Origin: Hyphomicrobiales bacterium
GTDB taxonomy: Bacteria > Pseudomonadota > Alphaproteobacteria > Rhizobiales > Aestuariivirgaceae
Direction: 5' to 3'
Length of the DNA stretch: 63,013 bases
Assembly: GCA_026982665.1 (NCBI GenBank)
Contig: JALSGQ010000043.1
Span: 1-63,013, forward strand
A model generated the notes under the pieces. It was given only the letters and a program-made list of their open reading frames with translations. It did not search any database and had not been told where the DNA came from. This document shows, one piece after another, positions 27,340 through 61,474 of this stretch; the stretch's first letter is position 1, and each line of letters starts with the position of its first letter. Both the position numbers and the translations under genes were made by a program.

Positions 27340-27891
27340 TCAGGCGGCCTTTTCCTGCTGCGCACCCTTGCTGCCACGCGCCTTGTTCAGCACGCCGCGA
27401 ATTTCTTCCGTGGCCTGCGATTCGCTTACCCGGCGCACTGCCGCCACCTCGCGTGCCATCCTGTCCAGCGCCGCCTCGAACAGCTGGCGCTCGGAATAGG
27501 ACTGCTCCGGCGCATCATCGGGGCGGAACAGGTCGCGCACCACCTCGGCCACGGCCAGGATGTCGCCGGAGTTGATCTTCGCCTCGTATTCCTGCGCCCG
27601 GCGCGACCACATGGTGCGCTTGATGCGCGGCTTGCCGCGCAGCACCTTCATCGCCTCCTCGACGATGTCCTTGCCGGAGAGCTTGCGCATGCCGATCTGC
27701 TCGCACTTGTTGGTGGGCACACGCAGGCGCATCTTTTCCTTCTCGAAGTCGATGACATAAAGCTCCAGCGCCATGCCGGCGATGTCTTCCTGCTCGATGG
27801 CGACGATGCGCCCCACGCCATGCGCCGGATAGACGATGAACTCGCCGGGCTTGAACGAAAGCTTCTTCTTCGTGCTTTTCTTGCTGGCCAT
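27340..27891 (-). CDS. carD: CarD family transcriptional regulator
   Basis: KKLSFKPGEFIVYPAHGVGRIVAIEQEDIAGMALELYVIDFEKEKMRLRVPTNK; SGDILAVAEVVRDLFR. Confidence 0.95.
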   Translation of the reverse strand: MASKKSTKKKLSFKPGEFIVYPAHGVGRIVAIEQEDIAGMALELYVIDFEKEKMRLRVPTNKCEQIGMRKLSGKDIVEEAMKVLRGKPRIKRTMWSRRAQEYEAKINSGDILAVAEVVRDLFRPDDAPEQSYSERQLFEAALDRMAREVAAVRRVSESQATEEIRGVLNKARGSKGAQQEKAA

Positions 27892-28126
27892 GTGTCTGAT
27901 GCCCTCGGTTTGTTGCAAATGATTGCAGGCGGACATTTGCACCCCTTTTCAGGGAGCGCGGTTCGGTCATTCCGTGCGCCAGCGGCTGCAGGCGGCCGTG
28001 GTCATCAATGACTGCCACCGAACCGCGCCCCCCTTGCCAAGAGGGAGGCGGATGCCTAGGATCAGGATGCTGGCAGAGATTCGCCGCACACCGCCAAGGC
28101 AGGCCTGAAACGAAACGGCAGGCCCG

Positions 28127-28157
28127 AAAAAATCCGAGCTCCGCAATGGAGGCTCGG
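28127..28157 (-). terminator. Rho-independent terminator upstream of carD (end of candidate sRNA or leader)
   Basis: Minus strand CCGAGCCTCC-ATTGC-GGAGCTCGG then ATTTTTT. Confidence 0.8.
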
Positions 28158-28188
28158 GCAATGGTGGTGTGCCCACCCGGATCCTTCT
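28127..28188 (-). ncRNA. Candidate small RNA or attenuated leader (about 62 nt) upstream of carD
   Basis: Promoter TTAACA-N16-TATAAG immediately upstream on the minus strand; GGTGG-GCACA-CCACC hairpin; terminator with T-run; no ORF. Confidence 0.45.
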
Positions 28189-28194
28189 TTTCCC

Positions 28195-28222
28195 CTTATA
28201 CCATATCTTAACTGCCTGTTAA
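28195..28222 (-). promoter_or_regulatory. Sigma70-like promoter with perfect TTAA-N7-TTAA (CtrA-type) box overlapping the -35
   Basis: -35 TTAACA (rc 28217-28222), 16-bp spacer, -10 TATAAG (rc 28195-28200); TTAA-CTGCCTG-TTAA at 28208-28222. Confidence 0.5.
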
Positions 28223-28403
28223 AGGTTCGAGGTGGCGCTTGTGCCGCCTGATGGGGTGATTTCTTGCCAGAGGGTTAACGCAGGACTGTCGGGTGCAAGC
28301 GCTTTCGAATCGAATTGTGCCCGCATCGGGTGATATGCGCCGTGTGGGGGGCGGGCATCTGCCGGGGCAGGCGAGTGGGCCGTGCCGGCAGGTGTCTTGT
28401 GCA

Positions 28404-28982
28404 TTACAGGGATTGCTCCACCCGCCACTGCAGGCGCTGGCAGCGTTGCTGCATTTCGCGCCAGTGGGGAAAGCGCTGCAACAGCGTGCGGCAGGCGTGC
28501 AGGGCCTGCTCGTTGTCTTCCAGGGCGCGCAGCAGCCGCACCCGCAGCAGCAGCGCGGGGAAGTGATCAGGCTGCCTTTGCAGCAGTTCGTCGAGCATGG
28601 AGAGGGCCTGTTGCGGGCGTTGCGTCTGCCACAGGAAGAAGGCGAGGCGAAAGCGGGCTTCCGCATAGTCCGGCCAGCGCCGCACGGCCAGCCGCAGCAG
28701 TTCTTCCGCCGTGCCCAGCAACCCGGCAGCCTGCGCCGATTCTGCCTGCTTCAGCAGCACCTGGGCGCTTATCGGCCCGGCGGCAATCCATGCTTTCTGC
28801 AGCTTCTCGCGCAGGGCGGCGGCGCGGGCCGGGTCCCGCTCCTGCTTCAGTTGCCTGAGCAGCTGGTGCGCGGCTGATGTGGTTGCCCTGTCCGTGGTTG
28901 CCTTGTCTTCGGCAGGCATTGCCAGCGCTTGTGGCAGCGCCAGACCCGCCAGCAGCAGCCATGTGAGCAAGTGCGTTCTCAT
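28404..28982 (-). CDS. TPR-repeat secreted protein
   Basis: Signal peptide THLLTWLLLAGLALPQALA; helical repeats AEELLRLAVRRWPDYAEARFRLAFFLWQTQRPQQALSMLDELLQRQPDHFPALLLRVRLLRALED. Confidence 0.75.
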   Translation of the reverse strand: MRTHLLTWLLLAGLALPQALAMPAEDKATTDRATTSAAHQLLRQLKQERDPARAAALREKLQKAWIAAGPISAQVLLKQAESAQAAGLLGTAEELLRLAVRRWPDYAEARFRLAFFLWQTQRPQQALSMLDELLQRQPDHFPALLLRVRLLRALEDNEQALHACRTLLQRFPHWREMQQRCQRLQWRVEQSL

Positions 28983-29092
28983 GCTCGGGAACATATCATG
29001 GCTTTTGGCGTGCCGACATGAAAAAAGCGCCAGCCATGATGGCGGCGCTGATGCAAGCATGCAAAGCTGCCTGGATGAAAGGATCTAATGAA

Positions 29093-29167
29093 TGGAGCGG
29101 GCGATGAGATTCGAACTCACGACCCCAACCTTGGCAAGGTTGTGCTCTACCCCTGAGCTACGCCCGC
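29093..29167 (-). tRNA. tRNA-Gly (anticodon GCC)
   Basis: Minus strand GCGGGCGTAGCTCAGGGGTAGAGCACAACCTTGCCAAGGTTGGGGTCGTGAGTTCGAATCTCATCGCCCGCTCCA; cloverleaf with GCC anticodon and encoded CCA. Confidence 0.97.
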
Positions 29168-61228: not shown

Positions 61229-61474
61229 TCCTGCCATGCCTCCCGAAATATTTGACCTTCGCCGCACAATGCCGTAAAAGCCGCGTGTTTTCCATACAGG
61301 CAGCGTGAATGCCTTGGGCTATCCCGCACATGGCTCCCACCCGATAGCAGGAGCCGGGAGGCGGGAGGGTCGCCGCCCGTCAGCGAGGGTTCGCCCGCGG
61401 GCGCGCTACGCTTTTGTGCTAAGGTCATCGCTGCCCTACATGGAAAACACTGACAGGATCCGAAGAGGCCGAAA

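Follow-up and report, generated by a model that had tools for sequence, protein, structure and literature searches.

What does the short promoter-to-terminator unit upstream of carD do in the genome of this Hyphomicrobiales bacterium? CarD (CdnL) binds RNA polymerase, and it has been proposed that many sigma-70 promoters of alphaproteobacteria, including those for rRNA, require it. A sequence-only reading of the window (the whole stretch of DNA analysed here, 63,013 nucleotides) had pointed to the segment at 28222-28127 as either an independent small RNA (sRNA) or an attenuated carD leader that stops most transcripts early. The analysis described below favours the attenuated leader and disfavours the independent sRNA. 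We consider it rather likely that the unit is an early intrinsic terminator, or attenuator, within the carD promoter and 5' leader, linked to CtrA in the window's genus.

Architecture of the carD upstream region

The -35, the 16-nt spacer, TATAAG, the CtrA box, the hairpins and the T-run could all be confirmed on the minus strand, coordinates included (Table 1). The perfect TTAA-N7-TTAA indeed overlaps the -35, with its 5' base at predicted position -34, and the terminator, which had been put about 240 nt before carD, ends 235 nt from the carD ATG. At 28157-28127 a GC-rich hairpin runs directly into a U-run, as in an intrinsic terminator; the hairpin begins about 30 nt past the predicted start and has a predicted folding energy of about -13.4 kcal/mol. 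The 62-nt RNA as a whole gives a folding z of -2.7. Folding energy alone is nevertheless weak evidence, because a slightly longer stretch gives a z of only -1.4, and conservation is the stronger evidence for the promoter-terminator unit. A simple promoter/terminator scan of the window missed both the promoter and the terminator here, probably because of the bulged stem and the weak hexamers. No convincing second copy of the element was found in the genome.

Table 1 Features of the carD upstream region, in window coordinates.
Feature	Position	Strand	Basis and remarks
-35 hexamer TTAACA	28222-28217	minus	sequence; weak hexamer; 16-nt spacer to -10
Perfect CtrA box TTAA-N7-TTAA	28208..28222	minus	sequence; overlaps -35
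Extended -10 TGG-TATAAG (TATAAG 28200-28195)	28195..28203	minus	sequence; TGTGNTATA is the consensus of carD upstream regions
Predicted transcription start	28188	minus	from -10 spacing, predicted only
Small 5' hairpin GGTGG-GCACA-CCACC	28163..28177	minus	present, without conservation
Terminator hairpin CCGAGCCTCC-ATTGC-GGAGCTCGG	28134..28157	minus	one bulged C; compensating stem changes in relatives
T-run (T6, after one A)	28127..28132	minus	intrinsic terminator; predicted 3' end of the short RNA
Remaining carD 5' UTR, terminator to start codon	27892..28126	minus	little conserved in genus; no further promoter of this type
carD (CdnL-type CarD regulator), ATG 27891	27340..27891	minus	Pfam PF02559 and PF21095; ORF list
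TTAACC element (CtrA half-site-like), about 90 bp 5' of the predicted start	28273..28278	minus	invariant in six-species genus alignment
TPR gene, upstream of carD promoter	28404-29060		ORF list
tRNA, upstream neighbour	29096-29167		

Other parts of the sequence-only reading fared less well. The small 5' hairpin is present in the window and lacks conservation in sister species. The anti-Shine-Dalgarno-like CCUCC motif, said to be exposed by the terminator, was rejected, since the stem pairs its CUCC with GGAG and the motif is not conserved. The statement that the region holds no ORF is true of ATG starts; a 69-codon frame with a GTG start does span it and has no conserved counterpart, and no start codon or frame for a leader peptide is conserved in the genus.

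No Rfam family, of sRNAs or otherwise, reached its cut-off in the 28222-28127 region. The atoC RNA motif (RF01733), a cis-regulatory candidate of delta-proteobacteria, gave a full-length match (1-93/93) at 28126-28207 with 30.4 bits and an E-value of 0.0006 to 0.002, and its model, like the carD unit, combines a -10-like sequence with a small hairpin and a terminator. The score is, however, far under the curated gathering cut-off of 50 bits, and no match was seen in the genus relatives and other carD leaders scanned, even at E = 2. We therefore do not regard the carD leader as a member of this family, and even a more distant kinship is extremely unlikely: the motif comes from a different bacterial class and a different gene, and the likeness lies in general layout. 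Elsewhere in the window, the ffh sRNA family (RF01793) was matched above cut-off at 61359-61411 (+).

Conservation within the genus

The window's genome (2.13 Mb) was compared with those of ten other species of its genus, g1, the named relatives being Hyphomicrobiales metagenome-assembled genomes; carD was located in 10 of the 11. TTAA-N7-TTAA stands at the same place in every genus relative with a complete carD upstream region (9/9), and across the nine complete loci all eight TTAA-TTAA bases are kept, with variation in the 7-nt spacer. A GC-rich hairpin with a T-run follows the promoter in 10/10 genus relatives, the run being only TTTT in one of them (L039). In a six-species genus alignment the TTAACC block has a mean pairwise identity of 0.76, the promoter one of 0.72 and the hairpin with its T-run one of 0.66; the RNA body reaches only 0.33, and the stretch between the terminator and carD 0.22. 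Promoter and terminator are thus kept in the genus while the remaining sequence drifts. Pairing in the terminator stem is maintained by compensating changes, with CCGAGC/GCTCGG, CCGGGC/GCCCGG and CCGGAC/GTCCGG all found in the genus. Conservation of the stem and the promoter in close relatives had been named beforehand as a test of the sequence-only reading, and both are kept.

In one sister species the interval separating the TPR gene from the carD promoter contains an inverted repeat, about 75 nt long and nearly perfect (L039:778-856), which attracts spurious microRNA matches; a similar upstream hairpin seems present in L045.

A genus-specific CtrA box

The window's genome encodes a CtrA homologue (77% identity to a Caulobacter CtrA query) and holds nine perfect TTAA-N7-TTAA sites, against three for a reversed-pattern control. 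Further perfect boxes of this genome (G000: L254, L256, L259, L260 and L262) precede bamA, ftsZ, gcrA, a DivIC-family septum gene and a gene for a sigma-54 activator with a receiver domain. Several of these are classical CtrA-type targets, and together they form a short list of likely targets of CtrA.

Full CtrA sites near -35 accompany activation in Caulobacter (PMC4287350). The carD site resembles such promoters in its perfect palindrome, in the position of its 5' base near -35, in the encoded CtrA and in the retention of the box throughout the genus, and differs from them in being predicted from sequence alone. With CtrA present and boxes at CtrA-type targets, the putative site has the marks of a CtrA-activated promoter, and CtrA~P probably binds the -35 box and activates the carD promoter in the genus. 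The CtrA regulon papers searched do not mention carD. Comparative evidence gives good support to the CtrA link and the promoter-terminator unit that the sequence-only reading had predicted.

Of 125 carD promoters from outside the genus, 29 have at least seven of the eight bases of the CtrA box and none has all eight. The full CtrA box is therefore a feature of the genus, and the promoter-terminator layout is wider. TTAACC or GTTAAC occurs within 110 bp upstream of 68 of these 125 promoters, against 5.9% of control windows. A TTAACC(A/T)T element is seen upstream of carD promoters throughout the order, its positions clustering at about -100, -90, -79, -68 and -57 from the predicted start; by inspection, without a formal periodicity test, the steps are about one helical turn.

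Promoter and terminator across the order

We took carD upstream regions from named genomes, from the order and from the family and searched them with a 31-nt promoter matrix, consisting of CTTTAA or CTTTGA and then TGTGNTATA. The matrix, which was trained on part of the loci counted, matched 133 of 185 non-sphingomonad carD regions and none of 32 from sphingomonads. Base -7 of the promoter is T in 49/101 and G in the window. A terminator follows 5-110 nt past the -10 in 60 of 107 non-redundant carD loci, compared with 4.2% of antisense and 3.2% of other sense control windows; the terminator thresholds were our own choice, and the picking of training promoters included a bonus for a following terminator, which was left out of this count. 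The terminator is enriched in carD leaders order-wide, and 60/107 is probably an undercount, because the threshold misses loci that combine 5-bp stems with long T-runs. In a sample of 29 leaders from the other orders of the class, the promoter was often visible and most lacked an early terminator, which appeared in about three.

These positions bear on the possibility that the terminator serves chiefly to block transcription running on from the tRNA and the TPR gene upstream, with carD using another promoter and the 28188 start being minor or a decoy. The TPR gene does end at 28404, and from there to the CtrA box the scan saw no terminator on the minus strand. An insulator would, however, be expected upstream of the promoter, and in the 60 loci the terminator lies past the conserved promoter, by no more than 110 nt; the search for promoters of this type yielded no other one for carD. 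We regard an insulating role as very unlikely.

Of 104 non-redundant leaders, 15 have CAGTCG at +2 to +5 of the predicted carD RNA (for example L077, L105, L155, L158, L169, L191 and L199). The leader hairpin of L078, L080, L084, L186, L191 and L199 consists of CCTCC-loop-GGAGG, about T7 and then ATG, and its bases resemble a terminator and, at the same time, a sequestered Shine-Dalgarno site that precedes a short frame. In several Hyphomicrobiales CarD itself appears to be extended at its N-terminus by a long, basic (Lys/Ala-rich) stretch (L053, L057, L060, L061, L108 and L121), so that annotated CarD starts may lie too far downstream.

Leader of carD or independent small RNA

The terminator sits, at a conserved position, between the carD start codon and a promoter that is predicted and was sought by a search for its own type only. 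The same search, the matrix of which covers that type alone, found no second promoter between the terminator and carD in 90 loci (0/90). One clade has just 32-53 nt between the T-run and the most upstream position at which carD could start. In terminator-less relatives, such as Bradyrhizobium, the same promoter directly precedes carD. Published start maps give long 5' UTRs, with a single start and 233 nt for Caulobacter cdnL and 266 nt for S. meliloti carD (PMC5324124). For these reasons we favour a carD leader over an sRNA.

The competing view is that the unit encodes an independent, CtrA-controlled sRNA of about 62 nt acting in trans, with carD having its own promoter past the terminator and the synteny being incidental or regulatory. 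The full promoter-to-terminator unit does have the size of an sRNA, and the CAGTCG of the 15 leaders would suit one. In three other genera, moreover, promoter, body and terminator are all more conserved than the spacer that follows, the RNA body having an identity of 0.75-0.83 compared with 0.52-0.60 for the upstream flank, and a start-site study of S. meliloti found that a long leader and an sRNA were indistinguishable for some starts (PMC3616915). Given this fairly conserved body and this ambiguity, the short RNA may yet have its own function. On the other hand, a trans-acting sRNA would be expected to keep an unpaired seed or body, and in the window's genus the body identity of 0.33 leaves no conserved seed; the CCUCC is paired in the stem. 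The lack of another carD promoter of the same type, the short distance from T-run to start in one clade, the homologous terminator-less promoters directly before carD and the lack of an Rfam sRNA match at cut-off all count against it as well. Taken together, an independent sRNA seems unlikely.

A model for attenuation in the carD leader

On the favoured reading, that of an attenuated leader, RNA polymerase would start near 28188 at the extended -10 promoter, and CtrA~P at the -35 box would activate this promoter in the genus and so couple carD to the cell cycle. Once about 60 nt had been transcribed, the GC-rich hairpin would form in the nascent RNA, and the T-run would release many of the polymerases. 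The fraction that reads through would yield the carD mRNA, its leader being about 297 nt long, and the terminated RNA of about 62 nt would be a by-product that could appear as an sRNA. Probably, then, much carD transcription ends after about 60 bases and only read-through yields CarD. The use of the 28188 start, the activation by CtrA and the degree of termination are what we infer from the sequence. Against the model, carD is believed to be well expressed, and so strong a terminator in front of it would be odd unless read-through is high; moreover, the RNA body fairly conserved in three other genera would be unneeded in a mere by-product.

Termination may be regulated or may act as a fixed brake. 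Analyses of the genus alignment and of an outer helix found no antiterminator, sensor domain or conserved leader peptide. The outer helix, which would pair the leader with bases past the T-run, was visible in one clade only (L057, L060, L066, L085, L106, L108 and L121) and was rejected as a general feature (mean own-shuffle rank 0.48; swap test p = 0.03), being unremarkable in the window. A regulated switch, in which read-through responds to the CarD level, the state of RNA polymerase or a signal, or an additional action in trans of the ~62-nt RNA, is put forward as a doubtful extension of the model. Feedback by CarD through its leader is an attractive idea; the protein binds the polymerase and, according to a report on R. 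sphaeroides known to us as a citation, represses its own promoter, and by analogy it may act in this way here.

Comparison with known systems

We found no description of a carD attenuator, leader or sRNA in searches that spanned part of the literature, without supplementary tables; the published control of CarD that we found consists of protein degradation in starvation and of promoter autoregulation. The closest relatives are the cdnL/carD leaders of Caulobacter and S. meliloti (PMC5324124), which belong to the same gene and, compared by published length and -10 rather than by leader sequence, have an unusually long leader and a similar -10 (GCTATTGT in Caulobacter). The window's genus has a full CtrA box at -35, and no report of an early terminator in these two leaders was found in the literature searched. 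In R. sphaeroides, carD is under negative autoregulation and represses its own promoter (Henry et al. 2021, as cited in PMC11034885). As in the window, carD expression would there be controlled at the level of transcription; the effect in R. sphaeroides, judging by the title cited, is on the promoter, whereas the additional feature of the window would be termination downstream of it.

A terminator kept in the carD leader across much of the order would add a control point and would help explain the unusually long leaders in start-site maps; in the window's genus it would connect the overall capacity for transcription with the CtrA cell-cycle circuit. If the switch were regulated, Hyphomicrobiales would possess an undescribed means of controlling a global RNA polymerase factor through its leader, joined to CtrA in the genus. 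Attenuators that use intrinsic terminators, such as those of the riboswitch, T-box and leader-peptide kinds, have the same layout of a promoter, a short leader, a hairpin with a U-run and a gene on the same strand, and unlike them the carD leader has no detected antiterminator, ligand domain or conserved leader peptide. Attenuated leaders are thus of a known kind, and it is carD as the controlled gene that is the point of interest.
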